Below the pieces are notes generated by a model. It was not told where the DNA came from. It searched no databases and was given only the letters and a program-made list of their open reading frames with translations. From NCBI GenBank assembly GCA_007280905.1, contig QYQM01000093.1, positions 1 to 41,796 of the forward strand: a stretch of 41,796 nt of DNA, in the 5' to 3' direction. Made by a program: the position numbers and the translations under genes. Each line of letters starts with the position of its first letter. Position 1 is the stretch's first letter. This DNA comes from Porphyromonadaceae bacterium (lineage in GTDB: Bacteria > Bacteroidota > Bacteroidia > Bacteroidales > UBA12481). Shown here one piece after another: positions 3,764 through 31,061 of the stretch.

Positions 3764-3764
3764 A

Positions 3765-4180: not shown

Positions 4181-5926
4181 TTATACATATTCAACTTTAC
4201 TGATTAAAGCATCGATCTGGGCAATAACCTGAGAATCGGTAAACTGGCGTCCTTTAATAGCAGCGGATGGACAAGCAGCCACACAGACACCACATGCCTT
4301 GCAAAGTGCACTGATAATATGGCTGTGTCCTTTTTCTTCTTCGTATTCAATAGCGCTGAACGGACAAAGTTTGTTACAGAACCGGCAACCTGAGCAAACG
4401 TTCTCATCAACCTCGGAGTATACTGCGTCAACCTCAATTTTACCTCTGGATATCTTTGCCAGTATCCGTGCTGCAACTGCCCTTGCTTGTGCTACTGAAT
4501 CCGGAATATCTTTGGGTGCCACACAGGTTCCGGCAATAAAGATACCGTCGGTGGTTGTTGCCACAGGTTCCAGTTTCGGATGGCTTTCGATAAACCATCC
4601 GTCTTTATCCTGGCTGATATTGACCAGGTGCGCAACCTCGGCAGAATCCTCACGGGCTTCCATACCTACCATAAGCACAACCAGATCGGCTGGGATCTCT
4701 ATGAGCTCACCCGAAAGTTTCTCGTTGACTTCAATCAGCATTTCACAATCGTCCTTCGGACCTGCCCGGTGGATAACTGGACGGTCACCCTTTTCATACA
4801 TGAGAAATAAAGTTTTTACTTCTGAGGAGCGCTTGTAGAAATCTTCATGACCTTTCCCGAAAGCGTGCATATCTATATATATATCTGATACATAACAGGC
4901 TGGATTGGCAGATTTAATCTCGTGAACGTATTTCAGGGCAGTCATGCAGCATACCCGTGAGCAATAGGTATGAAATTCCAGATTCCGGCTTCCGACACAA
5001 TGGATAATGGCTACATATTGAGGGACCTTGCCCTCTTTTGTTTCGATGCGGCCGGAACGAATCATCTTTTCCAGCTCGAAAGAGGTAATTACATTCGGAA
5101 GTTTCCCGTATCCATAATGCGTGATCCGGGATGCATCAAATTCCTTGTACCCTGTGCATACAGCGATATTCCCGATCCGGACCTCGAAAGGTTTAGACCC
5201 TGTACTTCCCTGTCCGTTCTGTTTCTGGATGTTAGCTTTGAAATTGCCGACAAATCCGCTCAGACTGGTCACTTTTGATTGTAAGTGTAACTGAATCTGC
5301 TTGTTGTTTAATACCCGTGTAATACGTTCCGTTAATAGATCACGGGCAGAATAGAGGTAAGGAGCCGTAAGATCCACACGTGCCAGATTGCCACCGAGGC
5401 GGCTATCTTTTTCAACCAGATAGACCTGGTAACCTGAGTCTGCCAGTTCCAGGGCAGTAGTCATTCCCGCAATACCTCCCCCAATAACCAGCACATTCGG
5501 ACACATATCAACGAAAATACTTTCCAGCGGCTCATGAAGCTCAACGCGTTTAACCGCAGCATACGTTAAAGCCATAGCTTTTTTTGTTGCCTCCTCCGGA
5601 TCATCATGAACCCAGCTGCATTGTTCGCGGATATTCGCCATCTCAAACAGGTACTGATTGAGACCAGCTTTTCTGAGAGCCCCCCTGAAGGTTCGCTCAT
5701 GCATACTTGGACTACAGGCAGCAACAACAATACGGTTTAGCTGGTTTTGTTTGATATCCTGGACGATCATTTCCTGCCCGGGATTCGAACACATATATTT
5801 ATATGTTTTAACCAGCGTTACATTGGGAACAGCGGAGATGAACTTCGCGACTGATTCCACATCCACCATTTTGGCAATATTGGTGCCGCACATGCATATG
5901 TAAACGCCTATTCTGCACTCTTTCAT
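4181..5926 (-). CDS. hdrA: HdrA-like FAD/iron-sulfur protein, type b (downstream module)
   Basis: A 581-residue homologue of the heterodisulfide reductase A subunit. The N-terminal HdrA domain keeps its cysteines (CMCGTNI at 11-17, YMCSNPGQ at 44-51, AACSPSMHE at 69-77) and the REQCSWVHDD segment. The FAD Rossmann motif GGGIAG is at about 149-154. The HCVGSR and YCSRVCC cysteines of the HdrA core are present. Near the C-terminus are two [4Fe-4S] motifs, CSGCRFCNKLCP and CKACGVCVAACP. The ferredoxin insertion usual in the FAD domain is missing, replaced by a short LTAPYLYSARDLL stretch. It is the last oxidoreductase gene of its module, 20 bp after the qmoC-like gene. It probably relays electrons between MvhD, the partner HdrA and the membrane subunit. 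Confidence 0.87.
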   Translation of the reverse strand: MKECRIGVYICMCGTNIAKMVDVESVAKFISAVPNVTLVKTYKYMCSNPGQEMIVQDIKQNQLNRIVVAACSPSMHERTFRGALRKAGLNQYLFEMANIREQCSWVHDDPEEATKKAMALTYAAVKRVELHEPLESIFVDMCPNVLVIGGGIAGMTTALELADSGYQVYLVEKDSRLGGNLARVDLTAPYLYSARDLLTERITRVLNNKQIQLHLQSKVTSLSGFVGNFKANIQKQNGQGSTGSKPFEVRIGNIAVCTGYKEFDASRITHYGYGKLPNVITSFELEKMIRSGRIETKEGKVPQYVAIIHCVGSRNLEFHTYCSRVCCMTALKYVHEIKSANPACYVSDIYIDMHAFGKGHEDFYKRSSEVKTLFLMYEKGDRPVIHRAGPKDDCEMLIEVNEKLSGELIEIPADLVVLMVGMEAREDSAEVAHLVNISQDKDGWFIESHPKLEPVATTTDGIFIAGTCVAPKDIPDSVAQARAVAARILAKISRGKIEVDAVYSEVDENVCSGCRFCNKLCPFSAIEYEEEKGHSHIISALCKACGVCVAACPSAAIKGRQFTDSQVIAQIDALISKVEYV

Positions 5927-5946
5927 GACTACTTTAATTAGTTGAC

Positions 5947-7098
5947 CTAATAGGAATAAGAGGGTAAAACAGCATCCTGTCTTTCCAGGGCATCCCGGCG
6001 TATCTCAGCAAAATACATAGCGAGTGGCCTGTAGACCAGATGTGACCATTTGCTGAAGGGCATCCTCAGCAACCATGGAACCACAGCCATGAGATGAATG
6101 ATATACGTGCCGTTTGCCAATTCATTAAGACCGGTGCGATGGAAAATATGCTGACAAATGCCAGTCAGGACAATCATGAATAAGAGGATCACAAAAACCC
6201 AGTCGGTACTGTGGGATTTCTTATATTGAACATAGTTTTTTCTTGATATACGTTTCCGAATAAAATAGATGGTACCAATTATGAGTCCGACGCTTGCCAG
6301 GTAGCCGAAAATATGGACGGACCAATCTATCCGGGGTCCGGATTGCAACTTTTCAATAAACACCATTACCAATACCAGCATAATGATATAACCCAGCATT
6401 AAGCCAAGGTGAACGATCCAAGGCATGAAGATTTTTGTAGGGCGTGTACTTTTGCATTCTGCATATCTCCTCTGGGAAAAAAAATGCCACACCATCAGGT
6501 ACAGTTTCTTCAGGTACAACCACCAGGGCACAGGGAAGCTGGTACCTCTGACCATAACAAAAAACCACATACGTACTGCGTTGATCAGCAGAAAAACAGC
6601 CAGACAAGCACCGACCAGTAAGTCAAAACTGTGGATAAAATGACTAGGCAGGAAGGCCCCTTCCCCATCATAAATACTGAAATTCCCCTGTGATAGTCCA
6701 TAGTATAACAAGAATGCTCCGGTTAATACTGCGACTCCGATAACCGCAAGTATCTCAGTGGTCAAGGATTTGAAAAAAAGCCGGGCAATACCGGTAATAT
6801 CGTAGCGTGAGATAAGCCATCTTCGCAGGCTCATCATAGTTTCACCCGGATCCGCTTCGCGGGGACACTGCTCTGAACATTGACCGCAATAATAGCACAA
6901 CCATGGTTCGAGGGTGGTTTCAATTTTCCGCCCCAGTCCCATCTGCAAAAAGCGCATTGACTTTCGGGGAAAGCGGTACATCTGATCGGAATGAAAACAG
7001 ACAGTTGAACAATCACCGCAGTGATAGCAGAACTGTACGTCTTCAGCTCCAAAACGCTCGAGATCGTCAATTAGCCTTGGATTAACTCTGATTGCCAT
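5947..7098 (-). CDS. HdrC/QmoC-like membrane iron-sulfur/cytochrome b protein (downstream module)
   Basis: 383 residues from the ATG at 7098, which is preceded by a strong Shine-Dalgarno (AAGGAGGT) and therefore preferred over 7176. The N-terminal HdrC part has two [4Fe-4S] motifs (Cys24, 27, 30, 34 and Cys68, 71, 74, 78). The C-terminal part has about five or six membrane helices of the HdrE/NarI-like cytochrome b type, with histidines in IVHLGLM, QHIFHRTG, YIIHLM and PFSKWSHLVYRP. The fusion of HdrC and cytochrome b parts is the architecture of QmoC in sulfate reducers, where it passes electrons to or from menaquinone. It lies between two hdrA-like genes. The quinone role is inferred from architecture. 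Confidence 0.85.
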   Translation of the reverse strand: MAIRVNPRLIDDLERFGAEDVQFCYHCGDCSTVCFHSDQMYRFPRKSMRFLQMGLGRKIETTLEPWLCYYCGQCSEQCPREADPGETMMSLRRWLISRYDITGIARLFFKSLTTEILAVIGVAVLTGAFLLYYGLSQGNFSIYDGEGAFLPSHFIHSFDLLVGACLAVFLLINAVRMWFFVMVRGTSFPVPWWLYLKKLYLMVWHFFSQRRYAECKSTRPTKIFMPWIVHLGLMLGYIIMLVLVMVFIEKLQSGPRIDWSVHIFGYLASVGLIIGTIYFIRKRISRKNYVQYKKSHSTDWVFVILLFMIVLTGICQHIFHRTGLNELANGTYIIHLMAVVPWLLRMPFSKWSHLVYRPLAMYFAEIRRDALERQDAVLPSYSY

Positions 7099-7108
7099 AA
7101 TGACCTCC

Positions 7109-8911
7109 TTATACAGCATGAATAGTTTTAGCCCTGTCCTCAATCTCGCTGAGGGAGACGCTGGAAAGATGTCCAATGCCCCTCCCGCTGGTTATGCTGC
7201 GTAAAACACCTGCAGCTACAGCCGATGCCTGGGCCACTGTATCGGGGATATCTTTCGGTCCCTGGCACATTCCTGCTACATAAATCCCTCCTCTTTCCGT
7301 ATCGGTGGGATTTCCGTTATAATCCAATTCCGAGAACCAGCCGTCAGAATCCCTTGTTATTTCTAGCATTTTGCTGATTTCTTCCGTACCCGCTGAGGGG
7401 ATAAGCCCGACAGCCAGGATCACCATATCCACCTTGAATTCAACCATCCGATCATTGATAATATCTTCTCCCTTCACGGTCATCTGGTCATTAACCATTT
7501 CAACGGATGCCGAATGTCCCCTGACCACAAATGTTCCCTCATGCCTGATCCGATCGGCGAATTCTTCATAACCTTTGCCGAATGCGCGCATATCAATATA
7601 AAATTCATAACATTTAACATCAGGGATTTTTTCTTTGATCAGGTGGGCAAATTTTAGAGAATACATACAGCAAACGCGGGAGCAGTATGCGTTGTATTTA
7701 TTGTTTCTCGAGCCTACACAATGTAAAATAGCCACACTGCGCGGAGGTACTCCTTCGGGAACGAACACCCACTCCTCCTGTTGGGACTTTCTGTTGAATA
7801 ATTTCGTTTTGGTGACAATTCTTCCCCCGGTGCAACCGGAAGCATTGGTAAGGCGTTCAAATTCAATTGAGGTTAGAACATTGGGATATTTTCCATAACC
7901 ATATTGTTCAATCTTCTGTACATCAAGCAATTCATAGCCTGTGGCTATGATAATATTACCGACTTCCAGGTCGAGAAAAGTTTCGGTTTCCGCTAGGTTG
8001 ATACATTCCTTGGGGCATTTTTTTGCACAGACACCACATTTTATTCCATTCGATAGAATATAGGTGCACGAAGCCTCATCGATAAGGTAAGCATTGGGCA
8101 CCGCCTGGGGGAATGGGATATAAACGGCTTTCCGTTTGGTAATTTTTGAATCGAACTCGCTATCTACCTTTACCGGGCATACATCAGAACATATACCACA
8201 GGCAACACATGAATCAACATCTATGCGGCGAGGACGCTGACGGATCCTGACCCGGTAGGAACCGGGGTTCCCGCTAACCTCGGTAACATCGGAACAGGTT
8301 AGCAGCCGGATCATTTCATGTTGCACTACCGAAACCATTTTCGGTGTCAGGATACAGGCTGCACAATCAAGAGTGGGAAAAGTTTTGTCAAACATAGCCA
8401 TATGACCGCCGATAGTTCCTGTCTGTTCAACCAGGTAAACCTGTTTACCTGCGTTGGCGATCTCCAATGACGCCTGGATACCTGCAATTCCTCCTCCAAT
8501 AACCAGCGTGGAATGGTTAACCGGATTCCCTGTCGGAATCGCAACCAGGGCAAAAGGGACTCCCATGTTGGCACATGCGACCGTCGCCTTGGCCCTGTCG
8601 AGCGCGATTTCACCCGTTGCCCCGTGCTCCTTGAAAGAAGCCAGTCTGACCTCATCCGTATTACACCCGGCCAACGCCATTGCTTTGGTAAAAACCGGCT
8701 TATAATAGCCAGGCATATCTCCCGCGATTACAATCCTTGTGAGGCTGTTTGCCAGAATTAAATCAGCTAGAAGTGACGCTTTCAGATGAGGTTTCAGTCC
8801 AAGGTTCTGAACGATCTCGACACCGGGCAAGTTAGCTGCATACTTTGCGATTGCATCAACATTTAGATTTTTACCATCCTCTACCTGGCAGAAAAAAACA
8901 CCGTTTCGCAT
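7109..8911 (-). CDS. hdrA: HdrA-like FAD/iron-sulfur protein, type a (downstream module)
   Basis: A 600-residue HdrA homologue preceded by a GGAGGAGA ribosome-binding site. The first ~130 residues fall where the HdrA N-terminal domain would be but have lost its CxCG, YMCS and AACS cysteines. The FAD motif GGGIAG is at 139-144 and the typical TFPTLDCAACILTPKM stretch at about 178-192. A ferredoxin insertion follows, with CVACGICSDVCP (235-246) and Cys282/292/295/299. The core cysteines HCVGSR and YCSRVCC are kept, and the protein ends with no C-terminal ferredoxin. It is thus complementary to the type-b protein, which has the N-terminal and C-terminal clusters but no insertion. The two are probably partners, comparable with QmoA/QmoB. 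Confidence 0.87.
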   Translation of the reverse strand: MRNGVFFCQVEDGKNLNVDAIAKYAANLPGVEIVQNLGLKPHLKASLLADLILANSLTRIVIAGDMPGYYKPVFTKAMALAGCNTDEVRLASFKEHGATGEIALDRAKATVACANMGVPFALVAIPTGNPVNHSTLVIGGGIAGIQASLEIANAGKQVYLVEQTGTIGGHMAMFDKTFPTLDCAACILTPKMVSVVQHEMIRLLTCSDVTEVSGNPGSYRVRIRQRPRRIDVDSCVACGICSDVCPVKVDSEFDSKITKRKAVYIPFPQAVPNAYLIDEASCTYILSNGIKCGVCAKKCPKECINLAETETFLDLEVGNIIIATGYELLDVQKIEQYGYGKYPNVLTSIEFERLTNASGCTGGRIVTKTKLFNRKSQQEEWVFVPEGVPPRSVAILHCVGSRNNKYNAYCSRVCCMYSLKFAHLIKEKIPDVKCYEFYIDMRAFGKGYEEFADRIRHEGTFVVRGHSASVEMVNDQMTVKGEDIINDRMVEFKVDMVILAVGLIPSAGTEEISKMLEITRDSDGWFSELDYNGNPTDTERGGIYVAGMCQGPKDIPDTVAQASAVAAGVLRSITSGRGIGHLSSVSLSEIEDRAKTIHAV

Positions 8912-8944
8912 TTTATCTCCTCCTGATTAAGATATTTCCAATAG

Positions 8945-10408
8945 TTAGTTCCGAGTGATACGCTGCAATAATTCCCCTTTTACGTCCCGGATTTCCAGGA
9001 TCATGGGCATCTCCCCGGGTAGACTGTGGGTTGCACATGAGAAGCAGGGATCATAAGCTCTGAACGCCATCTCCACCATATTTAATATCCCGTCGGTTAC
9101 CGTTATTCCTTTTTTAATCAGCCCCTGGGCCGCTTTTTTAATCGACATGGTAATCGCAGCATGATTATTGGTCGTTCCGACAATTATATTGACTTTAGTC
9201 ACAATACCCTTTGCATCCGTCCAGTAATGGTGCGTGAGTGTGCCTCTCTGCGCTTCTACGATCCCAACGCCTTCGCCAACAATCTTATTAAGCGGGGTCC
9301 GAAGCTCCTTCCCAGTGATATCAGCATCCAGAGCCAGTTCAAGACAATGCTCAGCCGCATAAAGCAATTCGATAAGTCTGGCCCAATGCATGGCAAGGGT
9401 TGCATGCACGGGTTTTCCGCCCAGTATAGTATACATACGTTCGTACTCTTGTTGAGCAAGCGGTGTGGCCATCCCATCTGAAGCATTTAATCTTGATAAT
9501 GGTGTAGCATGATAAACACCAGAATCCTGTCCATCCACAAATCCTTTCCATCCAATCTTTTTGAGATAAGGGAATTTCAGATAACTCCATGGTTCCACCC
9601 GTTCTGCCACAAAATCACGATATTCGGCAGGTGAATACTTGCAGAGTTCCTTACCTTCCGTGTCCACTACCCTTACCTTGCCGTCATAAAAATTGACTTT
9701 GTTATTCGCATCAACCAGTCCCATTGAATGAAGACAAAGGGAATAGGGCCCGTTCAGAATAATATCGACGTACTGCTTATTGCCGAGGACGACATCTTCG
9801 AAAATCTTGAGTGAGAATTGTGCAAATTTTATGAAGCCATTAGATTTTTCGACAATATCGTCACGTTCCTGTTCCGAAAGCCCTCTTCTCACACCTCCGG
9901 GAATGTTCATCACCACGAAGGTCTGGTGTCCTCCTAATAAAGCCTGGATTTCCTGGGCGAGCCGGCGTTGTTTGATCACTTCCGTACCAATTTCAACCCC
10001 CACCTTATTAATGACACCCAAAATATTTCTTTCCGACTTCGGAGCCTGAGGTCCGACCACAAAATCCGGTGCTGCGAGTGCATAAAAGTGAGCAATATGG
10101 CTATGAACAAAGTGCGCCATATAAAATAACTCCCTGAGTTTTCTTGCAGTCGGAGGAGGTTGAACACCAAAGACAGCATCGACCGCCTTTCCGGATCCCA
10201 TATGATGGCAGCCCGGACACACACCACAAATCTTAGACACTATGGCCGGTAATTCTTCCACGGGTCTGCCTTCGCAGAATTTTTCAAATCCCCGAAGTTC
10301 CGGGACCTGGAAATACACATTTTTTACATCTCCTTCATCGTCAAGAAAGATTTCAATTTTCCCGTGGCCCTCAAGCCTGGTAATTGGGTCGATGGTAATT
10401 CTTTTCAT
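8945..10408 (-). CDS. mvhA: [NiFe]-hydrogenase large subunit, MvhA type (downstream module)
   Basis: 487 residues, about the normal length for group 3 large subunits. The active-site cysteines are visible: L1 is KICGVCPGCHH (Cys61, Cys64, His68) and L2 is DPCFSCATH (453-461). The 26 residues after His461 should be removed by the maturation protease after Ni insertion. The start ATG overlaps the stop of the small-subunit gene by one base (TAATG), so the two are translationally coupled. The N-terminus (TIDPITRLEGHGKI) lacks a signal peptide; the enzyme is cytoplasmic. Association with MvhD and HdrA genes places it with group 3c/3a enzymes, though exact subgroup needs a tree. A close paralogue is at 12978-14441. 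Confidence 0.92.
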   Translation of the reverse strand: MKRITIDPITRLEGHGKIEIFLDDEGDVKNVYFQVPELRGFEKFCEGRPVEELPAIVSKICGVCPGCHHMGSGKAVDAVFGVQPPPTARKLRELFYMAHFVHSHIAHFYALAAPDFVVGPQAPKSERNILGVINKVGVEIGTEVIKQRRLAQEIQALLGGHQTFVVMNIPGGVRRGLSEQERDDIVEKSNGFIKFAQFSLKIFEDVVLGNKQYVDIILNGPYSLCLHSMGLVDANNKVNFYDGKVRVVDTEGKELCKYSPAEYRDFVAERVEPWSYLKFPYLKKIGWKGFVDGQDSGVYHATPLSRLNASDGMATPLAQQEYERMYTILGGKPVHATLAMHWARLIELLYAAEHCLELALDADITGKELRTPLNKIVGEGVGIVEAQRGTLTHHYWTDAKGIVTKVNIIVGTTNNHAAITMSIKKAAQGLIKKGITVTDGILNMVEMAFRAYDPCFSCATHSLPGEMPMILEIRDVKGELLQRITRN

Positions 10409-11379: not shown

Positions 11380-11396
11380 TATTCAGGCGGTTAAGA

Positions 11397-11822
11397 TTAG
11401 GTTAGTTCTTCCATCACTTGTTTTAACCTGCAAGGTCCCAGTTCGGTAATCGTTTCCGTGAAACTATTTACCAGCTCAGCAAATTGCTTTCCTTCACTGG
11501 CACTGATCCATTCCAGTTTGAGCCGCTCCTGTTCGATCCCCATCTGCTGAATATACTTTTGAAGAAGATGATACCTTCGTAAGCAGCGGTAATTACCTTC
11601 CTGATAATGACAATCGCCAGGATGGCATCCGCAGACCAGCACACCATCGGCGCCACGGATAAAAGCCCTGAGAACGAATGTTGGTTCAATGCGGCCTGAG
11701 CACATCACCCTGATGGCACGCACGTTGGGCTGGTATTTCATTCGCTGTGTACCGGCAAGATCTGCTCCCGTATAGGAACACCAGTTACACAGAAAGGCTA
11801 TAATTTGTGGTCTGAATTCCAT
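11397..11822 (-). CDS. mvhD: MvhD-type iron-sulfur delta subunit (downstream module)
   Basis: 141 residues, the usual length of stand-alone MvhD/FlpD. Five cysteines of the family are visible: CNWC (12, 15), VMCSGRI (41), VCGCHPGDC (64, 66, 71). In methanogens MvhD carries a [2Fe-2S] cluster and links the hydrogenase to HdrA. It is the first gene of the downstream module; about 650 bp of mostly non-coding sequence lie upstream, with a Rex-like palindrome at 12188-12205. A near-identical-length paralogue is at 15460-15885. Confidence 0.92.
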   Translation of the reverse strand: MEFRPQIIAFLCNWCSYTGADLAGTQRMKYQPNVRAIRVMCSGRIEPTFVLRAFIRGADGVLVCGCHPGDCHYQEGNYRCLRRYHLLQKYIQQMGIEQERLKLEWISASEGKQFAELVNSFTETITELGPCRLKQVMEELT

Positions 11823-11983
11823 CTTTACTTATCTCCCAAATGATCGGTTTGAGTTACGATTTCTTATTCTGCACCAAGAAATTATCCATGCTGAGGAAGC
11901 CGGCACGGTTTTAAGGACGAGCTTGTTAATATGCCCGGAACGAAAGTAAAACTCCTGACAGTCTATCTGCAGGATGAGGACAA

Positions 11984-12172
11984 TCAAAATGCCAGCAGGA
12001 TTCTCCCGCTGGTGTATAAGCTATCCAAAATTCTGACCCCAAATCCATTCATCGCGAAGATCAGGGGCATTGCCAGTAGGAATCCTGTAACTGGCGGACT
12101 GAAAAGGATATATCCCTTTCTTATGTAGAAGGTTAAAACCAGTAAGTGGGCAAGATACAGTAACTTATTCAC
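11984..12172 (-). CDS. Small hydrophobic protein, hypothetical
   Basis: A 62-residue frame with two hydrophobic segments (about residues 1-17 and 24-45), including LAMPLIFAMNGFG. I do not recognise the family. It could be a remnant of a larger membrane protein, since it lies in a gene-poor stretch between the two hydrogenase modules and has no visible ribosome-binding site. The opposite strand also holds an open frame of similar length, which lowers confidence that either is real. Confidence 0.25.
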   Translation of the reverse strand: MNKLLYLAHLLVLTFYIRKGYILFSPPVTGFLLAMPLIFAMNGFGVRILDSLYTSGRILLAF

Positions 12173-12187
12173 ACGGATAGTGTTTAT

Positions 12188-12205
12188 GCGTGATTTCTTT
12201 CACAA
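12188..12205 (-). promoter_or_regulatory. Rex/CRP-like palindrome between the two hydrogenase modules
   Basis: On the minus strand this reads TTGTGA-AAGAAA-TCACGC. It contains the perfect inverted repeat GTGA-N6-TCAC and matches 10 of 12 fixed positions of the Rex consensus TTGTGA-N6-TCACAA. A rex gene is on the same island, and TTGTGAAA motifs lie in front of both divergent operons, so Rex is a reasonable candidate; a CRP-type protein would fit the core too. Confidence 0.45.
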
Positions 12206-12385
12206 AGTATAAAAAGAATCTATATTAACCAAAAGATTATTTTTGAAATCAATTGACGAAGATGTGTTTGAGCAGTCATCAAGATACTCTTGCCGATTGA
12301 TGATTTTGGCGGTATCCTGAATCGGAAAAGGGAGAGATTCGACAATAGTTTTCATCAGATAGTGTGACAGCTGAGTTATTACCAC
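12200..12385 (-). CDS. Short hypothetical ORF
   Basis: A 61-residue frame with a GTG start and mixed composition (SHYLMKTIVESLPFPI, then QEYLDD). No family is recognised and no ribosome-binding site is obvious. Its 3' end reaches into the Rex-like palindrome at 12188-12205. It may be a chance frame or the tail of a decayed gene; the preceding 31-codon frame (MNMRAFTAKG) ends in stop codons at about the point where this one starts. Confidence 0.2.
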   Translation of the reverse strand: MVITQLSHYLMKTIVESLPFPIQDTAKIINRQEYLDDCSNTSSSIDFKNNLLVNIDSFYTL

Positions 12386-12478
12386 TGGTCCAAACCGGAG
12401 TATATTCCATTAATGACTTTTTCCGGAGTGGGTATATATAACGTTCCCTTTGCTGTAAATGCTCTCATATTCATTGTT

Positions 12479-12955
12479 TTAAACCGAATTATCAAAAACC
12501 TGTTCTGTGATTAAGTAATCCTTTATTTCCTTAAGTATTTCTGGATAGCGGCTGTTTAAAGGTGGCGTCAGTTCATTCGAGAACTCCCGGTCTTCAATTA
12601 TCTCAACTGCGATAATCCGGATTTCCTCCGGTAATTTGATATTTAGCTTTTTGCCCAGCCTGAGAGCTGTCAGAAAACTAATATCATGGAGATTTGATAA
12701 ATGCATGGTTTCACGGAAATCATCGGGACTGAACAGGTAAACTGAACCCGGGGTACCATTTTTTGTCCGAATAGCATCGATCAGGATGGCCTCATCGTAT
12801 CCGTTGAGGAGTTCAATGATCTCCAATCCACCCACGCAGGCGCACGCGAAATGAACATTTTGGTTCAGGCAATTTTTACTGAGGTCATTCACTAATCTTG
12901 GGCCTATACCGTCATCAGTCAATATTTCATTTCCGATTCCAAGGACCAGCTTCAT
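12479..12955 (-). CDS. [NiFe]-hydrogenase maturation endopeptidase (M52/HyaD family)
   Basis: 158 residues, typical for the family. The N-terminal GIGNEILTDDGIG motif supplies Asp15, Asp60 lies in AILIDAI, and His90 in NLHDISFL; these match the three nickel-sensing positions (Glu/Asp, Asp, His) of HybD/HycI-type proteases. It would remove the C-terminal extension of the large subunit after nickel insertion. It lies 22 bp downstream of the upstream-module mvhA and is the only such protease in the window, so it may serve both large subunits, whose cleavage regions (DPCFSCATH followed by SLPG) are identical. Confidence 0.9.
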   Translation of the reverse strand: MKLVLGIGNEILTDDGIGPRLVNDLSKNCLNQNVHFACACVGGLEIIELLNGYDEAILIDAIRTKNGTPGSVYLFSPDDFRETMHLSNLHDISFLTALRLGKKLNIKLPEEIRIIAVEIIEDREFSNELTPPLNSRYPEILKEIKDYLITEQVFDNSV

Positions 12956-12977
12956 TTTTTAATCATTGATTTGGTAA

Positions 12978-14441
12978 TTAATCCCGCTGAATCGTACGAA
13001 TTATATTTCCATCAGAATCTTTAAAATTAACCAATAGAGGCATTTGTCCCGGCAAACTGTGGGTTGCACATGAAAAACAGGGATCATAAGCACGGAAAGC
13101 CATCTCGATCTGGTTGAGGATGCCTTGATCGGGTTCGATACCAGCTTTAATAACATACTGTGCAGCCTTTTTGAGTGACATGCAAATAGCAGCGTGATTG
13201 TTTGTAGTACCTACAATAATATTAACCTTGGTTACCATGCCTCTCGAGTCGGTCCAATAATGGTGGGTTAGCGTACCCCTTTGTGCTTCCACACATCCGA
13301 CTCCCTCACCGACAATTTCTTTCAGATCGGCTCGAAGCTCTTTACCCGTGATTTCCGGATCCTTGATCAGCTCGTTAAATCGTTCAGCAGCATACAATAG
13401 CTCCACCAGGCGGGCCCAATGCATTGCCAGGGTTGCATGGACAGGTTTCCCGCCGAAGGTACTGAACAATTCCTGGTATGCCTCATTAGCCAATGGGGTG
13501 GCCATACCGTCGGCAGCATTAAGCCTCGACAAAGGCGTTGCATGGTAAACGCCTGAATCTTGTCCTTCCACAAACCCTTTCCAGCCGATCTTCCTCAGGT
13601 AGGGAAACTTCAGGTATGTCCAGGGCTCTACACGCTCGGCGATATAATCCCGATAGTCAATGGCATGATATTTATATTTCTCTTTCCCTTCAGTATCAAC
13701 CACTCTCACCATTCCATCGTAGAAATTGACCTTATTGTTTGAATCAACCAGGCCCATGGAGTGAATCTTCAGATTATAAGGACCTTCGAGGATCATGTTA
13801 ACATAATCACTATTTGCCAGAACCACATCCCTGAAGAGCTGAAGGCTGAATTTGGCGAATTTCTGAAATCCCTTCCCAATCGGAATTAATTGTTCCCTTT
13901 GCTCCTCGGTAAGTCCTTTCCTTACACCACCCGGGATATTTAGTACCACATGGGTCTGATGCCCCCCCAGCATTGCCTGTATCTCCTGTGCGAGCCTCCG
14001 TTGGCGTATTACCTCAGTTCCTACCTCCTTGCCTACCTTGGCGATAACACCGAGGATATTCCTTTCGGAGGGATCGGCATTGGGACCAACCACAAAGTCT
14101 GGGGCTGCAAGTGCATAGAAATGGGCAATATGGCTATGAATAAAATGAGCCATATAGAATAGTTCCCTGATTTTCAGAGCGGTAGGTGGAGGAGCCAGAC
14201 CAAATACAGCATCGATGGCTTTACCTGCTGCCATGTGGTGGCACCCTGGGCATACTCCGCATATCTTGGTAACGATCCGGGATAGTTCTTCAACCGGCCG
14301 TCCTTCGCAGAATTTTTCGAACCCTCTGAGTTCCGGGACCTGAAAATACACGTTCTCAACATCTCCCTGATCTGTAAGGAAGATTTCAATTTTTCCATGG
14401 CCTTCAAGACGGGTTATCGGATCAATGGTAATCTTTTTCAT
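12978..14441 (-). CDS. mvhA: [NiFe]-hydrogenase large subunit, MvhA type (upstream module)
   Basis: 487 residues, the same length as its paralogue at 8945-10408 and nearly identical over the first 70 residues. L1 KICGVCPGCHH and L2 DPCFSCATH are both intact, followed by a 26-residue C-terminal extension that the protease encoded immediately downstream should cleave. No signal peptide is present. It ends the run hdrA-a, qmoC, hdrA-b, mvhD, mvhG, mvhA. Conservation of all active-site residues in both copies shows that neither is decaying. Confidence 0.92.
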   Translation of the reverse strand: MKKITIDPITRLEGHGKIEIFLTDQGDVENVYFQVPELRGFEKFCEGRPVEELSRIVTKICGVCPGCHHMAAGKAIDAVFGLAPPPTALKIRELFYMAHFIHSHIAHFYALAAPDFVVGPNADPSERNILGVIAKVGKEVGTEVIRQRRLAQEIQAMLGGHQTHVVLNIPGGVRKGLTEEQREQLIPIGKGFQKFAKFSLQLFRDVVLANSDYVNMILEGPYNLKIHSMGLVDSNNKVNFYDGMVRVVDTEGKEKYKYHAIDYRDYIAERVEPWTYLKFPYLRKIGWKGFVEGQDSGVYHATPLSRLNAADGMATPLANEAYQELFSTFGGKPVHATLAMHWARLVELLYAAERFNELIKDPEITGKELRADLKEIVGEGVGCVEAQRGTLTHHYWTDSRGMVTKVNIIVGTTNNHAAICMSLKKAAQYVIKAGIEPDQGILNQIEMAFRAYDPCFSCATHSLPGQMPLLVNFKDSDGNIIRTIQRD

Positions 14442-14452
14442 ATCCTGTGGTT

Positions 14453-15448
14453 TTAATTAACGGGCTTGGGGACAGACATTTTTTTCCGAAGAATGGCTTT
14501 TGGCAGGCTAAACCGGTAAAAGGTACCAACTGGATCGACGATCGCATCCACAATTTCCTCTATCTCTATTTCCAGGTTGCTGTCTATTATGGTCCCGATT
14601 GCTGACATCATTTTAGCCCCCGGATCAGGCGCATCGGCAGGTGGACCGTAGCAACCCTGGCAAGGGGCATTCCCTTCGATGCAACGATAGCCGCATCCTC
14701 CCCTGGTGGCAGGGCCCATACAGATCACACCTTGTTCAAGAAAACAGGTTTCGCCGTCATCATGAATCTCCCATGGACGATAAAATTTCCTGATGACCTT
14801 GTTATCTGTTTTCTTTCTCTTGCACTCATCGCATAAAGTTTTCTCCCATGCACCGACAACCGAACCATTTGGGGGTAATTCGGCCTTGTTGACAATTGCC
14901 ATGAAAACCTCAATGAGTCGTTCTGTTCGAGGAGGACATCCGGGAAGATAGTAATCCACATCCACGACCTGGTTCAGGGCTCTCACATCATTGAAGAATT
15001 CCGGCAATTCCAGTTCACCCTCAGTGACATTGAAGTGAGTCTTTGGAATGATCCCGTCAGGATTTAAGGTGGACTCGGTCTCCAGATAGATACGGTTAAA
15101 AAGTTCATTCTTGTTTGTCAGATTGGCCAAACCGGGAATTCCACCCAAATGTGCACAGGAACCATATGCCACTAAAATCTTGGATTTTTGCCTTAGGAGC
15201 CTGGCCATATGTTCGTTTTCGCTATTCCGGACCGCGCCGTTAAAAAGGGTCAGATCGATAAAACCATCTGCCATAGCTTCCACATCCTTATACTTGATAT
15301 CGAGAGCTATAGGCCAGAAAACCAAATCAGCTACGGCCACAACATCGAATAATTTCTCATGTACATCCAGTACTGAAACACAGCAGCCTCCGCAGCCGGC
15401 TCCCCAATAGATAGCCATTTTCAATTTGGGTTTATCTTGATTTGCCAT
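14453..15448 (-). CDS. mvhG: [NiFe]-hydrogenase small subunit, MvhG type (upstream module)
   Basis: 331 residues, with the proximal-cluster segment YWGAGCGGCC, further cysteines in YGSCAHLGG and YYLPGCPP, and a C-terminal cluster region with CDEC, CFLEQGVICMGPATRGGCG and CQGCYGP. There is no export signal. It is a close paralogue of the gene at 10408-11379, with a slightly longer C-terminus (VPKPVN). It lies 11 bp after mvhD and 11 bp before mvhA. It should carry three iron-sulfur clusters linking the Ni-Fe site to MvhD. Confidence 0.92.
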   Translation of the reverse strand: MANQDKPKLKMAIYWGAGCGGCCVSVLDVHEKLFDVVAVADLVFWPIALDIKYKDVEAMADGFIDLTLFNGAVRNSENEHMARLLRQKSKILVAYGSCAHLGGIPGLANLTNKNELFNRIYLETESTLNPDGIIPKTHFNVTEGELELPEFFNDVRALNQVVDVDYYLPGCPPRTERLIEVFMAIVNKAELPPNGSVVGAWEKTLCDECKRKKTDNKVIRKFYRPWEIHDDGETCFLEQGVICMGPATRGGCGYRCIEGNAPCQGCYGPPADAPDPGAKMMSAIGTIIDSNLEIEIEEIVDAIVDPVGTFYRFSLPKAILRKKMSVPKPVN

Positions 15449-15459
15449 AATCAGGTTAT

Positions 15460-15885
15460 TTAGACCATTTGTTCCAATTGGGCTTTAATAGTAGAGGGAC
15501 CAAGGTTTTTAATAGTCTGTGTCATTTCATTTGCCAGTTCGGCAAATAGTTTGCCTTCACTGGCACTGATCCATGCCAGCCTTATGCGGTCGGGCTCAAT
15601 CCCCATTTGCCTGATATACTTTTCAATCAGTTTAAATCGCCTGAGGCACTTATAATTACCCTCATTGTAATGACAGTCTCCCGGGTGGCAACCACAAACC
15701 AGTACCCCATCTGCTCCCTCCTGGAAAGCTTTAAAAATAAAGGTAGGACAAATCCTCCCCGAACACATAACCCGGATAATCCGTAAGCTGGGTGAATATT
15801 TCATACGGCTTGTCCCTGCAAGGTCTGCACCGGTATAGGAACACCAGTTACAAAGAAAAGCGACAATTTTTGGCTCGAATTCCAT
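15460..15885 (-). CDS. mvhD: MvhD-type iron-sulfur delta subunit (upstream module)
   Basis: 141 residues, with [10 protein letters not shown] near the start, VMCSGRI and VCGCHPGDC, the same five cysteines as its paralogue at 11397-11822. It lies 4 bp downstream of the type-b hdrA gene and 11 bp upstream of mvhG, so here the join between Hdr-like and hydrogenase parts of the operon is direct. In the other module MvhD comes first and its hdrA partners last, which is how the two modules differ in order. Confidence 0.92.
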
Positions 15886-15889
15886 AGTT

Positions 15890-17617
15890 TCAGACTTCTA
15901 ATAGTTGTAACATGACTCCTTCGATCTGCGCGAGAATCTGTTTCTCGGTGAAGTGACGGCTTCCGATGGCGCCGGTAGGGCAGGCTGAGGCGCAGGTCCC
16001 GCAACCTTTGCAAATGACTTCGTTGACGCAGGAGACTTTTTTCTCCTTAAGGAATTCAATGGCTCCATAGGGACATACATGAACACAGATTTGGCATCCG
16101 CAGCAAATCTCTTCGCGTACGCTGGAGGTGATAACTTCGACCTCGACCCAATCTTTATTAATCATGGCAAGAACCCTCGCTGCAGCAGCCTTGGCCTGGG
16201 ATGCCGAATCACTTATCTCTTTCGGTGCCTGGCAGCTTCCTACGATAAATACACCGTCCGTTGTAGTTGCTACAGGATCCAGCTTCGGGTGTTTTTCAAT
16301 GTAAAAATTATTGCTACACCGGCTGATCCCGAGAACCTGGCTTAACTGCTTGGATGTTTCCTGGGCCTCCATTCCAACCATCAGGATCACCAGATCAGCA
16401 GTAACCTCAACTTGCTCTCCGCTAAGCAATTCCTTCATTTCGATGACGAGTCTGGTCTTTTCGTTTTTGCCGGCCTCACGGATATAGGGAAGTTTACCCT
16501 TTTGGTCATACATCAGGAACATCACGCCTCTTTTGGCAGTTTTTGAATACATCTCTTCACAACCCTTGCTCATCGACCGCATATCAGCATAAATCTGATA
16601 AACATGAGCTTTAGGCAGCAAATCCTTTATCTGGTTTGCAAATTTCAAAGCTGTCTGGCAACATGTTCTCGAACAATATGGCAGAAAATCAGGATTTCTG
16701 CTGCCAACGCAATGAATTATAGCAACATGTTTGGGCTCTTGCCGTGAGTCCAGCCTGATATACCCTTTACTGAGCATTTCCTCAAATTCCACACTGGTTA
16801 TAATATTTGGTAACCTTTTATAAGCATAATTCGACAACGGGGTAGGCTTAAATGGTTTTAAGCCTGTGGCCACAATGATATTGCCAAATTCAAGCTCGGA
16901 TTGAGTCTCTTTATGATTGACCGTTCCGATGAAATTACCCACATAACCGGACAGTTTTACCAACTGGGAATTCAGGTAAACCTGGATATGCGGATGAGAA
17001 GAGACTTCTTCAATGATCGGATTCAAATACTTTGAGGCCTCATCAAGGTTGGGAAAAGTCCGGTTTATCTTTTTCATCATTCCTCCCAGGCTTTTTTCTT
17101 TCTCAACAAGAAAAACGATACGACCGGTTCGTGCAATCTCCCGTGCTGCTGTCAATCCGGCTATTCCTCCTCCGATAACCAGAGTAGCCGGATTCACCTT
17201 AACGCTACGTTTGTTTAAAGCTTCCTGCCAACGGACACGCTTGACCGCTCCTGTAACCAGGTCTATGGCTTTTTGGGTAGCTTTTTCGCGATCATCATGA
17301 ACCCATGATACCTGTTCCCTGATATTAGCCATCTGAAACAGGTAAGGATTTAGTCCGGCTTTCTCCAGTGCCTTCCTGAAGGTTATTTCATGGATCCGGG
17401 GGGAACAGGCGGCTACTACGATACGGTTGAGATTCATCTCCTGTATATCTTTGACCATAAGGTCCTGGCCCGGATCGGAACACATATATTTATAATCCCG
17501 TGCAACCACAACGCCTTGCAATTTGCCGGCTTCAGCAGCTACTCTTTCGACGTCTACATTCTTGGCTATATTTGTACCACACCAGCAGATGTATACCCCG
17601 ATTCTGATTTCTTCCAT
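15890..17617 (-). CDS. hdrA: HdrA-like FAD/iron-sulfur protein, type b (upstream module)
   Basis: 575 residues, paralogous to the gene at 4181-5926. The N-terminal HdrA domain has [16 protein letters not shown] and AACSPRIHE, followed by [13 protein letters not shown]. The FAD motif is GGGIAG, the core cysteines are HCVGSR and YCSRTCC, and the C-terminal double [4Fe-4S] ferredoxin has [12 protein letters not shown] and [12 protein letters not shown]. The internal ferredoxin insertion of canonical HdrA is absent; the corresponding stretch is [16 protein letters not shown] with no cysteines. It lies between the qmoC-like gene (11 bp) and mvhD (4 bp), which suits a role as the direct electron partner of MvhD. 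Confidence 0.87.
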
Positions 17618-17628
17618 AGCGTTAGAAC

Positions 17629-18819
17629 CTAAATAGCAGGCGTTAATTCAACAATAGACTGACGATTCTGACCTGCCCGTCTGAGACGGTCAAAATAGAC
17701 AGCGAAGGGCCGGTAAGCCAGATGCGACCATTTTGAGAATGGAACCTCAATCACGATCATCGGAACCAGAAAGGCGAGATGGATCAGATAGGTAAAATAC
17801 GTCGCGGCCGGCAAACCTGACACCCGGAAAATATGAATCAGAATGCCTGTGACCGCAGTAAAAAACAGAAGAACGATAAACATCCAGTCGGACGGATGCG
17901 AAAATTGCATCTTAAGATCGGTTTTCCTGATCCTGCCAATAAAGGTGTATATCAGGAAGAACAATATTCCAAAAGTGGAATAGTAACCCAATAAACGCTG
18001 CCAGTGGTACCAGGGTTTGATCTCCTCGATCTGGAACTCCTTCAGGAAAGCCACAATCAGGGTGAACATGATGGTATAGCCTGTCATAACCAGCAGGTGG
18101 CCAATCCAATAGGTCCTGTTATCGCATTTTGAGAACCTGGCTTGGGTTACAAAATTGTATATCAGGCTCCAGAATTCAGTGAAATAAGAATAAAAGGGAA
18201 ATTTCAGGTTCCTATCTGAAAGGATCACCCGGTAAAACATGTGAAAGATATTGCTGATCAGAAAACCTGCCACAAGGATTGCCATCAGGAGATCCCCGTA
18301 TTCGATGAGCTGGACGAACCTGGATGCTGAAATCCCGTTGGCCAGGCTGTTTATCATGACTCCGCCCTGTTCATTAATAAAAGCCTGTGGTTTGGAAAAC
18401 AGGTCCGGCGACGGGGGGAGAAAGACCAGAAACGAAATAATAACACCAAGCGCTATTAAAATTATGGCTGCGAGCTCCCATATCTTTCGTGTATAAAACA
18501 ACCTGGATATGCCAGTCCAGTCATAACAGGAAGTCAGGTACCGGCGTAAAACCATCATTAATTCGCCCGGATTGGCATTGCGCGGGCAGGTTTCGGTGCA
18601 TTCGCCGCAATAGTAGCAGAGCCATGGATCGACACTGGAAACCAATTGCTTTTTAAGTCCCATCTGAGCCAATCTGATTCCTCTCCGAGGAAAAAGATTA
18701 TCATCCTTTGTGAGAGGACAGATCGCCGTACAATTACCGCAATGAAAGCATTCATTCCATTCACGCAGTCCATATTTGTGCAGTTCCTGCTTGAATTCCG
18801 GATCGACTCTGGATATCAT
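17629..18819 (-). CDS. HdrC/QmoC-like membrane iron-sulfur/cytochrome b protein (upstream module)
   Basis: 396 residues. Cys24, 27, 30 and 34 (CFHCGNCTAIC) and a second motif CYYCGECTETCP form the HdrC-like dicluster part. Membrane helices follow, with histidines in WIGHLLVM, LIHIFRVSG, YLIHLAF and PFSKWSHLAYRP, a pattern typical of NarI/HdrE/QmoC cytochrome b. A segment of about 50 residues between the first and second helices is longer than in the paralogue at 5947-7098. It lies between the two hdrA-like genes, 6 bp after type a and 11 bp before type b. The architecture implies membrane anchoring and electron exchange with the quinone pool. Confidence 0.85.
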   Translation of the reverse strand: MISRVDPEFKQELHKYGLREWNECFHCGNCTAICPLTKDDNLFPRRGIRLAQMGLKKQLVSSVDPWLCYYCGECTETCPRNANPGELMMVLRRYLTSCYDWTGISRLFYTRKIWELAAIILIALGVIISFLVFLPPSPDLFSKPQAFINEQGGVMINSLANGISASRFVQLIEYGDLLMAILVAGFLISNIFHMFYRVILSDRNLKFPFYSYFTEFWSLIYNFVTQARFSKCDNRTYWIGHLLVMTGYTIMFTLIVAFLKEFQIEEIKPWYHWQRLLGYYSTFGILFFLIYTFIGRIRKTDLKMQFSHPSDWMFIVLLFFTAVTGILIHIFRVSGLPAATYFTYLIHLAFLVPMIVIEVPFSKWSHLAYRPFAVYFDRLRRAGQNRQSIVELTPAI

Positions 18820-18825
18820 GTCTTT

Positions 18826-20589
18826 TTAATTTATCATATAGGTTAACGGAAATACCTCTGAATCTGTAAGCCTGTCGCTCATAATGCTTTGCAGCACACC
18901 GGCAGCAGCCGCGGAAGCCTGAACCACCGAATCCGGAATATCCTTTGGACCCTGGCAAACACCTGCGATCCAGATACCCGGCCGGTTGGTCCTTACAGGA
19001 TCAATCTCATACCGGACTGCTTTAAACCAGCCGTATTCATCTACGTCAATTCCCAGAATATCCGATAGTTTCTTCTGGTCATCTGCCGGTTCCAGGCCTA
19101 TGGATAAGATTATCATATCCATATCCTGTTCGAGCATCCTGCCGGCAATGATATCCTCCGTTCTCAGATGGAGATGTCCGTCTATTTGGTCTACTCGGGC
19201 AGTTTTACCCCGAATCATTCGGACGCCTTCATCCTGGATCCGGCAATAAAACTCCTCATACCCCTTGCCAAAGGCCCTCATATCTATGAAGTATTCAAAT
19301 ATCTCGGCCGATGGAAGCTTTTCCCTTACCAGGTGTGCCAGCTTCAGCGAGTACATGCAGCAAACCTTTGAACAGTATGGATTGAAATTCTCGTCGCGGC
19401 TTCCCACACAATGTATTATTCCAATCTTCTGAGGCTTACCGCTGTCATTTACAAATACAGAATTCCCCTTTTTATCAGTCGTCCTGAAAGTGATCTCACC
19501 GCCGGTTGGGCCGGCAGCATTGATCAATCGTTCGAACTCAAGAGAAGTCAAGACGTTCGGGTATTTCCCGTATCCAAAGCGGTCAATCCGGGAAGCCTGG
19601 AATGGTTTGAAACCATTTGCAACAATAATGTTTCCTGCTTCTATTTCAATCTCACGTGGTACTTCATACAGATTGATACAGCCGGTAACCGGGCAAACTT
19701 TCACGCAAACTCCGCATTTCCCCTCCTGTATAAACCTGCAGGCTTCACCGTCAATCAAATACTTATTCGGAACTGCCTGTGGAAAAGGCATATAGATAGC
19801 CTTCCTCATGGTTGTTCCTTCATCAAATTCACTGGAAACCTTAACCGGACATTTTTCTGAACAGGTCCCGCAACCAATACAGGATTTAACATCTACCCAT
19901 CGAGGTGACTGCCGGACTGTAACCTTATAATGTCCGGGTGTTCCATTAACAGCAACAACCTCTGAACAGGTCATCAGTTCGATTAAAGGATGCTGCCCCA
20001 CCTCTACCATTTTGGGTGTAAGAATGCATGCGGCACAATCAAGGGTCGGAAAAGTCTTGTCAAACTTGGCCATATGACCGCCTATCGTCCCGGATTTCTC
20101 TATCAGATAAACTTTCAGACCTGCATTGGCAATCTCCAGGGAAGCCTGAATCCCGGCGATGCCTGCGCCGATGACAATGGTATCCTGTTGAATATGGGAA
20201 GATTGATGTCTTTTATCTACAACTTGAGAATGAACCCGCTCAAGCAACTCATACACATTCTGTACCTGGCTTTCATAAACGCACCACGTATCGCCAAAAT
20301 CTGCAATAACAACGGATTCAGCCTGATATCCCAGCTTTGTCATCGCTGTTCGGACTATTTGTCTGAACCTTTCCGGCCTGATTCCGGCCAGTATCACAGA
20401 TGTTAAACGGTGATGCCTGATCGTTTCCATCAATACATGGAAATCAGAGAAAAGGTATCTTGGCTGATCGATGATAACCGGTATCTTAAGGTTATCTCTG
20501 ACAAAAATGATCAGGTCAGACAGATCTACCGGCGTATACCCGGATGGGGGATCGCAGAAGATTATTCCGATTCGATCATACTCACTCAT
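18826..20589 (-). CDS. hdrA: HdrA-like FAD/iron-sulfur protein, type a (upstream module)
   Basis: 587 residues, first gene of the upstream module. The N-terminal ~140 residues retain the length of the HdrA N-terminal domain but lack its cluster-binding cysteines. The FAD motif GAGIAG is followed by FDKTFPTLDCAACILTPKM, a ferredoxin insertion with CIGCGTCSEKCP and GKCGVCVKVCP, and the core cysteines HCVGSR and YCSKVCC. There is no C-terminal ferredoxin. The 232-bp gap upstream, shared with divergent rex, contains a TTGTGAAA motif 20 bp from this start codon. The gene pairs with type-b hdrA in the same operon. Confidence 0.87.
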   Translation of the reverse strand: MSEYDRIGIIFCDPPSGYTPVDLSDLIIFVRDNLKIPVIIDQPRYLFSDFHVLMETIRHHRLTSVILAGIRPERFRQIVRTAMTKLGYQAESVVIADFGDTWCVYESQVQNVYELLERVHSQVVDKRHQSSHIQQDTIVIGAGIAGIQASLEIANAGLKVYLIEKSGTIGGHMAKFDKTFPTLDCAACILTPKMVEVGQHPLIELMTCSEVVAVNGTPGHYKVTVRQSPRWVDVKSCIGCGTCSEKCPVKVSSEFDEGTTMRKAIYMPFPQAVPNKYLIDGEACRFIQEGKCGVCVKVCPVTGCINLYEVPREIEIEAGNIIVANGFKPFQASRIDRFGYGKYPNVLTSLEFERLINAAGPTGGEITFRTTDKKGNSVFVNDSGKPQKIGIIHCVGSRDENFNPYCSKVCCMYSLKLAHLVREKLPSAEIFEYFIDMRAFGKGYEEFYCRIQDEGVRMIRGKTARVDQIDGHLHLRTEDIIAGRMLEQDMDMIILSIGLEPADDQKKLSDILGIDVDEYGWFKAVRYEIDPVRTNRPGIWIAGVCQGPKDIPDSVVQASAAAAGVLQSIMSDRLTDSEVFPLTYMIN

Positions 20590-23776: not shown

Positions 23777-23960
23777 TATGGCCATTGTGCAAATAGGTGG
23801 GCTAATGATCCAGGCGTCTCTCGATCTGGTTGAGGATATCTGCGTAGGCGATTATGTCCTGATCCATACCGGATTTATTATTCAGAAGATTTCAACGGAG
23901 GAGGCAGAGGAAACCAAGAGACTCATCCGCGAGATCGAAAACCTTAATGATGTTCCATGA
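23733..23960 (+). CDS. hypC: Hydrogenase assembly chaperone HypC
   Basis: 75 residues from the ATG at 23733 (MCLSIPAEVL). This start is required by the family, in which Cys2 binds iron and the hydrogenase precursor; the longer frame from 23673 would bury it. A small beta-barrel follows (IVQIGGLMIQASLDLV, VGDYVLIHTGFIIQKI). It overlaps the end of hypF by 44 bp and hypD by 4 bp (ATGA). It carries the Fe(CN)2CO group together with HypD to the large subunit. Confidence 0.92.
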   Translation: MCLSIPAEVLSTNSNMAIVQIGGLMIQASLDLVEDICVGDYVLIHTGFIIQKISTEEAEETKRLIREIENLNDVP

Positions 23961-25009: not shown

Positions 25010-25025
25010 ATATGAAAAGCTAACC

Positions 25026-26039: not shown

Positions 26040-26047
26040 ACCTTACC

Positions 26048-26389: not shown

Positions 26390-26390
26390 A

Positions 26391-28631: not shown

Positions 28632-28643
28632 GATTAAAAAGTA

Positions 28644-31051: not shown

Positions 31052-31061
31052 ATTTTTAAAA

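Follow-up and report, generated by a model that had tools for sequence, protein, structure and literature searches.

Two six-gene sets of redox genes lie next to each other in the window, the stretch of 41,796 nucleotides analysed here (bases 1-41796 of contig QYQM01000093.1 of a Porphyromonadaceae bacterium; 44% G+C, no N). Each set is read as an H2:menaquinone oxidoreductase built on the plan of QmoABC, with flavin-based coupling to ferredoxin as its likeliest reaction (probability about 0.6). Each encodes a hydrogenase of the MvhADG kind, two HdrA-like flavoproteins and a QmoC-like membrane subunit; a flavin hub, which ferredoxin may share, seems to connect the hydrogenase with the quinone pool of the membrane. 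HdrN and HdrF are names coined here for the two HdrA-like kinds; A and B designate two module types. The source genome (G000 in this analysis) has 4.39 Mb and is rated 99% complete.

Gene content and cofactor sites of the two units

The twelve redox genes reported in the initial annotation, in two sets with one protease between, were all found as full-length open frames on the minus strand (open-reading-frame analysis). Unit A is transcribed from 20589 in the order HdrN-QmoC-HdrF-MvhD-MvhG-MvhA-protease, with intergenic gaps of 4 to 22 bp. Unit B is transcribed in the order MvhD-MvhG-MvhA-HdrN-QmoC-HdrF-response regulator-histidine kinase. Protein lengths are given in amino acids (aa). FAD, flavin adenine dinucleotide.

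18826..20589, minus strand: HdrN type A, 587 aa; HdrA-like FAD protein with an inserted ferredoxin domain (8 Cys)
17629..18819, minus strand: QmoC-like protein type A, 396 aa; HdrC-like 2x[4Fe-4S] part and membrane domain of about six helices
15890..17617, minus strand: HdrF type A, 575 aa; HdrA-like FAD protein carrying an N-terminal cluster and, at the C-terminus, a 2x[4Fe-4S] ferredoxin domain
15460..15885, minus strand: MvhD/FlpD type A, 141 aa
14453..15448, minus strand: MvhG type A, hydrogenase small subunit, 331 aa
12978..14441, minus strand: MvhA type A, [NiFe] large subunit, 487 aa, four active-site Cys
12479..12955, minus strand: hydrogenase maturation protease, closing gene of unit A
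11823..12478: gap of 656 bp separating units A and B
11397..11822, minus strand: MvhD/FlpD type B, 141 aa
10408..11379, minus strand: MvhG type B, 323 aa
8945..10408, minus strand: MvhA type B, 487 aa
7109..8911, minus strand: HdrN type B, 600 aa
5947..7098, minus strand: QmoC-like protein type B, 383 aa from the ATG at 7098
4181..5926, minus strand: HdrF type B, 581 aa
3765..4154, minus strand: response regulator receiver protein, end of unit B
2423..3787, minus strand: membrane histidine kinase, end of unit B; often adjoins B modules

The start given for type B QmoC is an ATG behind AAGGAGGT; the listed TTG start (7176, 409-aa frame) lies farther upstream.

Family models and domains agree with the composite first described, in which an Mvh hydrogenase is combined with flavoproteins of the HdrA type and a membrane subunit of the QmoC type. 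The HdrA2 model matches the four HdrA-like proteins at E 7e-154 to 6e-177, the VhuA model the two MvhA at 2e-117 and 2e-114, and the FlpD model the two MvhD at 1e-55 and 1e-56. The qmoC model matches the two QmoC-like proteins at 4e-57 and 2e-53 (194 and 182 bits; curated cut-off 300 bits). All HdrA-like, QmoC-like and Mvh proteins score below the cut-off of the NCBIfam model that fits each best; these proteins are therefore relatives of the named enzymes rather than those enzymes.

Comparison loci were collected by scanning contigs of one genome per species with the MvhA pair as queries (best 80 of 527 confirmed loci) and from extra stretches of whole genomes. This set was selected by likeness of MvhA and is no census. 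The cysteines of the nickel site and of the clusters are intact in both window sets, as had been claimed, and are conserved in all module rows that reach them (MvhA of L115 and L117, two A-order loci, is cut at a contig edge). MvhA has four active-site Cys and a tail after DPCxxCxxH, which we take to be the part that the maturation protease would cut. In type B QmoC, His62, 182, 288 and 346 (numbering of the 409-aa TTG frame) are found in 8/8 rows; the same positions hold His in 0, 4, 0 and 0 of 18 type A rows.

HdrN and HdrF as complementary halves of HdrA

Against HdrA of structure 5ODC, HdrN (A) aligns over residues 4-564 (423 bits), short of the C-terminal ferredoxin domain; the alignment of HdrF (A) is in two parts, one on either side of the absent insert (491 bits in all). 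Cysteine counts give the same division. HdrN has the insert (8/8) and lacks both the N-terminal cluster and the C-terminal ferredoxin domain; in HdrF the N-terminal cluster (4/4) and the C-terminal domain (8/8) are present and the insert is absent. The C-Xn-C-X3-CC motif is kept in both. Since each is devoid of the domains that the other has, their sequences identify them as two complementary halves of HdrA. Two HdrA-like proteins per set are thus present, as first annotated, but neither is a whole HdrA. The Qmo proteins of G008, a genome of the window's own family, divide the domains likewise: QmoA has the insert, QmoB the C-terminal ferredoxin domain and a fused MvhD. This comparison is with a single pair, named from its position beside qmoC and from its domains.

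The residues equivalent to E356 and K409 of HdrA in 5ODC are kept, in the alignment, in both HdrN and HdrF (18/18 A and 8/8 B rows each). K/H, K/N, N/Y, N/H or I/H replaces this Glu/Lys pair in all HdrF of seven hydrogenase-less Qmo-like clusters, whose HdrN keep it in 6/7, and in HdrF of L062 and L079.

A tree of the shared core was built from 48 of 130 rows and 385 columns, by a quick method without bootstrap. The module HdrN and the module HdrF each form one group (99); a branch (98) separates both groups, together with HdrA, from QmoA/QmoB. QmoA is a long branch. Constraint tests that joined HdrN to QmoA (p 0.07) or HdrF to QmoB (p 0.13) rejected neither arrangement.

Two recurrent module types

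The search of the six-gene neighbourhood that had been proposed found the A order (HdrN-QmoC-HdrF-MvhD-MvhG-MvhA, in this type with the protease gene next) in 18 collected loci and the B order (MvhD-MvhG-MvhA-HdrN-QmoC-HdrF) in 8, the window included in both counts. Partial or frameshifted loci are excluded (L004, L008, L016, L021, L022, L024, L028, L031, L033, L113, L119, L120, L127, L128 and others). L021, L022 and L028 are outside the 8-locus count and inside the 11 B genomes considered below; L003 is replaced by L122, from the same place.

Rows selected for the trees number 40 for QmoC, 49 for MvhA, 40 for HdrN and 43 for HdrF; the HdrN and HdrF trees are of the quick kind, without bootstrap. 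The QmoC tree unites 10 B rows (97/98; 100/100 with two B-like rows) and places window A as sister to the A copy of G008 (100/97). The MvhA tree pairs the same two A copies (100/99) and places window B within an 8-row B group (98/92); all 11 B rows are united in only 58% of its bootstraps. The HdrF tree groups the A rows with one partial row (99) and the B rows together (96), both being sisters versus ordinary HdrA (99). In the HdrN tree, B and two B-like rows are grouped at 99, B alone at only 57. The A-order rows are never one side of a branch (5 changes in QmoC, 8 in MvhA, 3 in HdrN, 2 in HdrF), so that, by these four trees, A is a gene order common to several lineages; B is a tight lineage.

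Adjacency and equal gene content would suit an origin in which one six-gene module was recently duplicated in place and its copy permuted, and the initial annotation had asked whether the modules duplicated together. The phylogeny of the subunits contradicts this by placing the window sets in separate lineages: B rows stand apart from A rows in the QmoC, HdrF and HdrN trees, window A goes with its counterpart in G008, window B falls in with the B rows, and the two QmoC of the window are only 37% identical. Such a duplication can be given almost no credence. The two orders described at the outset are real, but as two separately recurring types and not as one set and its rearranged copy.

The divergence between the types is unevenly spread over the subunits. 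Mean identity (A-A/B-B/A-B) is 80/80/78% for MvhA, 72/75/70% for MvhG and 72/81/70% for MvhD; it is 56/70/38% for QmoC, 66/79/53% for HdrF and 59/77/51% for HdrN. By sequence identity, the types diverge much on the flavin/quinone subunits and little on the hydrogenase subunits. In G062, an A module is adjoined divergently by a B-like HdrN-QmoC-HdrF triple without MvhDGA. G086 has an A module too, and a B-like HdrN-QmoC that is truncated at the contig end; upstream of it lies hypB, and MvhA is missing there. In the QmoC tree the B-like rows lie outside the B group; in the HdrF tree so does that of G062. On the simplest inference from these sequences, two long-diverged HdrN-QmoC-HdrF triples seem each to have taken a similar MvhDGA cassette, on opposite flanks. 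A kinase scoring above 500 bits adjoins 7/11 near-complete B modules (two of the other four are cut by contig ends) and 0/18 A modules, some of which have little flank.

Distribution among genomes

Among the 18 A genomes, 5 have a complete B (G000, G008, G069, G071, G088) and 2 have B-like genes (G062, G086). No B or B-like triple was found in the other 11, mostly fragmentary metagenome-assembled genomes (MAGs); each of these 11 has a single MvhA above 900 bits, and several have additional QmoC-like matches scoring about 80 to 211 bits. A is present in 5 of the 11 B genomes, and G066 has MvhDGA-protease at a contig end, its MvhA falling among the A rows; no A was found in the remaining 5, again mostly fragmentary MAGs. 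Absences of A or B are soft because most of these genomes are fragmentary. The survey of QmoC-like genes in genomes covered 32/33 loci L001-L033 (L032 out). A and B lie on separate contigs in G008, G069, G071 and G088, and far from contig ends in G008 and G071; among the collected loci, their adjacency was seen only in the window.

These counts bear on the proposal that A and B form one hetero-supercomplex or exchange subunits, for example with one MvhDGA serving both triples. The slight differentiation of MvhD, MvhG and MvhA between the types would fit it, as would the B-like triple of G062 without an MvhDGA of its own beside A and the B-like HdrN-QmoC of G086 with hypB, not MvhA, upstream. 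However, A was found without B in 11/18 genomes, B without A in 5/11, and the two are on separate contigs in four; in the window itself, 656 bp separate the units, and the terminator-like hairpin in this gap (12012-11992, minus strand) is no better than chance (1 observed, 0.7 expected). The supercomplex, already raised in the initial annotation, is left unsupported and is considered improbable.

A Bacteroidota background, also stated at the outset, is likely: Bacteroidota is the label of 29/31 best loci. The top locus (L001) bears the label Aminicenantes and another (L023) Geobacteraceae; MvhA on both contigs (78 and 74% identical to the query) belongs to the Bacteroidota group, and either misbinning or transfer would account for the labels. 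Within the window's family, this MvhA is found in 2/12 genomes; it was found in 0/7 other genomes of the genus (one of them only 67% complete). In a survey of the phylum, QmoC at E <= 1e-90 was found in 2/395 genomes, the source genome included. Of these 395, 371 are at least 90% complete and little contaminated; at most four first-look candidates per genome were scored in the rows shown, and copies may be missed, above all in MAGs. Isolate labels of the best loci include LacPavin, fen and Reactor, which suggest that carriers of the modules live in anoxic habitats.

Proposed reaction

We infer the assembly of each set into one complex, its quinone acceptor, its ferredoxin coupling and direction, and a division of labour between A and B. 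Each six-gene set would form a membrane-anchored complex facing the cytoplasm. H2 would be split at the [NiFe] site of MvhA and the electrons passed through MvhG and the cluster of MvhD to an HdrN/HdrF heterodimer, to which HdrF would supply the N-terminal cluster and the C-terminal ferredoxin domain toward MvhD, and HdrN the ferredoxin-binding insert. From this heterodimer, electrons would reach menaquinone (MK) by way of the HdrC-like head of QmoC and then of its membrane domain, which is presumably a cytochrome b. With ferredoxin (Fd), the coupled reaction would be 2 H2 + Fd(ox) + MK <-> Fd(red) + MKH2. It would run forward at higher H2; at very low H2 it would run in reverse, menaquinol electrons being released as H2, driven by ferredoxin. 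Two such complexes would be encoded in the window, by lineages long separated on the flavin/quinone side.

Ferredoxin can be as low as -500 mV. If -414 mV is taken for H2, -74 mV for menaquinone and -420 to -500 mV for ferredoxin, equilibrium of the coupled reaction lies at 0.23 to 5.2 Pa H2. Potentials of -414, -70 and -420 mV for H2, menaquinone and ferredoxin are given in the consulted part of PMC5861303. In the excerpt used of PMC6019823, the path leads from H2 through MvhA, MvhG and MvhD to FAD; from there one electron passes through the clusters of HdrA and HdrC, and the other through clusters HA3, HA5 and HA6 to ferredoxin. The Glu/Lys pair (E356, K409) and the insert are marks of bifurcating HdrA in the portion consulted of PMC9430772. 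Flavin-based coupling is considered likeliest because both are kept in the modules.

G000 encodes two matches to the MqnA/MqnD family (menaquinone), Rnf, succinate dehydrogenase/fumarate reductase and an [FeFe] hydrogenase; Rnf, MqnA/MqnD and the hydrogenases make ferredoxin, menaquinone and H2 plausible partners. The MqnA/MqnD family is found in 8/8 genomes examined. At E <= 1e-20, menD was not found in G000 and was found in 1/8 genomes with related modules. Another cluster of G000 (contig C124, 1931-6862) encodes an HdrC-like protein, a 352-aa protein, an FAD protein and further proteins; its contig also carries rnfC.

Several observations weigh against the proposed reaction. Rnf, a usual outlet for ferredoxin, is found in only 3/8 genomes with related modules. 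The Glu/Lys pair is present also in QmoA and QmoB of G008 and in HdrF of L095 and L096, which group with this QmoB in the core tree; the signature is therefore no proof of bifurcation. Gene neighbourhood suggests one complex without showing it, and the hydrogenase is separable from the triple, as in two genomes a B-like triple or pair lacks it. The predicted structure of QmoC (A) has a mean pLDDT (predicted local distance difference test) of 84, with its Fe-S head partly below 50, and the Foldseek search with it gave no significant match (best E 0.08). In a second-look alignment of the Foldseek list, residues 1-99 resemble HdrC (Z 10.5), and residues of about 131-391 resemble NarI and EtfD at Z 8.5-10.5 (following rows, NOX5 and channels, at most 6.1), a range in which, by the aligner's own caveat, helical bundles (below about Z 13) may merely share a common arrangement. 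QmoC accordingly only models as an HdrC-like head joined to a NarI-like membrane domain.

A simpler enzyme would be a non-bifurcating H2:menaquinone oxidoreductase, in which HdrN/HdrF is a mere electron wire and ferredoxin plays no part. The division of domains is that of QmoA/QmoB, for which confurcation is merely proposed in the sources as consulted and which keep the same Glu/Lys pair; uncoupled transfer from H2 to menaquinone is strongly downhill. On the other side, none of the 18 A or 8 B rows has lost the insert or the pair, though HdrF of related modules no longer has the latter. An uncoupled wire is a serious competitor but an unlikely one, and ferredoxin coupling remains preferred.

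A fuller version of the coupled scheme assigns roles to the two sets. A and the adjoining B would be quinone-linked [NiFe] hydrogenases whose HdrA-type heterodimer bifurcates or confurcates, the paralogues, with their different quinone sides, allowing one anaerobe to switch between H2 uptake and menaquinol-driven H2 release in the syntrophic range. This is a tentative proposal, held with somewhat less than even confidence. Functional specialisation of A versus B is plausible; by sequence, the two differ mainly on the flavin/quinone side.

Neighbouring genes

20822..21457, plus strand: Rex redox-sensing repressor, divergent from unit A
21470..27053, plus strand: hypF, hypC, hypD, hypE, hypA, hypB, the full [NiFe] maturation set

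A Rex operator was sought between rex and unit A with the pattern TTGTGAANNNNTTCACAA (up to 3 mismatches); the window has 2 matches versus 3.4 expected by chance, neither of them there. The gap between A and B contains broken frames only, none assignable to a named gene, and may be the scar of an earlier gene. A phage-type integrase (146 aa, PF00589, 27391-27831) lies just beyond hypB at the edge of the hydrogenase region. Sugar catabolism genes occupy 28032-41559: 3-keto-disaccharide hydrolase, N-acetylglucosamine epimerase, PfkB kinase, amidohydrolase, major facilitator superfamily transporter, GH38 mannosidase, SIS and ROK proteins.

Comparison with known systems

HdrABC-MvhADG of methanogens (5ODC; group 3c [NiFe] hydrogenase) shares with the modules MvhA, MvhG and MvhD with their nickel-site and cluster ligands, the HdrA-type FAD proteins, the HdrC-like domain and the bifurcation signature. 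It differs in two respects. A membrane domain here replaces HdrB with its heterodisulfide site, and HdrA, one protein there, is here divided between the HdrN and HdrF genes. No match to HdrB (CCG domains) was found within either contiguous set, to which the search was confined, the rest of the genome not being searched for HdrB. Ordinary-looking HdrC-HdrB-HdrA-MvhDGA clusters occur in other loci labelled Bacteroidota (L017, L020, L030; HdrB recognised by eye).

QmoABC of sulfate reducers shares the QmoC-type membrane subunit, the division of domains between QmoA and QmoB, and the MvhD domain. Unlike in QmoABC, MvhD is a separate gene in both sets, not fused to QmoB, and MvhG and MvhA are encoded beside it; QmoC of the window is below the curated cut-off, and the flavoproteins group with HdrA in the core tree, although the constraint tests did not reject a join with QmoA or QmoB. 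The initial statement that the locus is neither HdrABC-MvhADG nor QmoABC is thus right as to the composite, but the domain plan is that of QmoABC with the MvhD domain of QmoB as a separate protein. A classical Qmo of sulfate respiration is rejected for G000, where no aprA was found at E <= 1e-30; aprA is found in G008. There (L151, contig C51, 9950-16519), aprA (881 bits) adjoins a qmoABC whose qmoC is over the cut-off, and a small Fe-S frame beside aprA is a candidate aprB; G008 carries A and B modules too.

Hydrogenase-less MvhD-HdrN-HdrF-QmoC clusters (L121, L123, L124 twice, L126, L130, L153) have the same kinds of subunits minus MvhG/MvhA; neither was found in the available stretches of these seven (only 6.5 kb for L121). 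Two loci labelled Acidobacteriota (L062 1885-9879, L079 6383-14262) have a third order, HdrF-MvhD-MvhG-MvhA-HdrN-QmoC, with an HdrF devoid of the Glu/Lys pair.

Mvh of Archaeoglobus sulfaticallidus may, tentatively, form complexes with HdrA and QmoB, according to the part consulted of PMC3949148. The idea of Mvh feeding a Qmo-type complex is common to both; neither a dedicated six-gene module nor a pair of types is found there, as far as that part goes. No description of a module linking Mvh hydrogenase genes to a QmoC-type gene was found in open-licence literature (PubMed Central papers under Creative Commons licences, as far as their text was covered; subscription papers are outside this scope). 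The earlier statement that no described complex of this composition was known agrees with this, which is weak evidence of novelty because only open-licence literature is concerned.

If true, the proposal joins a bifurcating hydrogenase of the methanogen type to the quinone pool. Anaerobic Bacteroidota would thereby be able to move electrons reversibly among H2, ferredoxin and menaquinone, and in the fuller version of the scheme the enzyme would be a bifurcating one of the HdrA kind whose high-potential partner is a quinone of the membrane. It is a long-standing question of energetics how menaquinol electrons leave fermenting or syntrophic bacteria as H2; the module would make one answer to it testable. 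It would also illustrate recombination of Mvh and Hdr/Qmo parts, similar hydrogenase cassettes flanking opposite sides of two diverged quinone units. Every part is known; what seems new is that they are combined in this way, in two gene orders that recur, and that the hydrogenase side has diverged little and the quinone side much.

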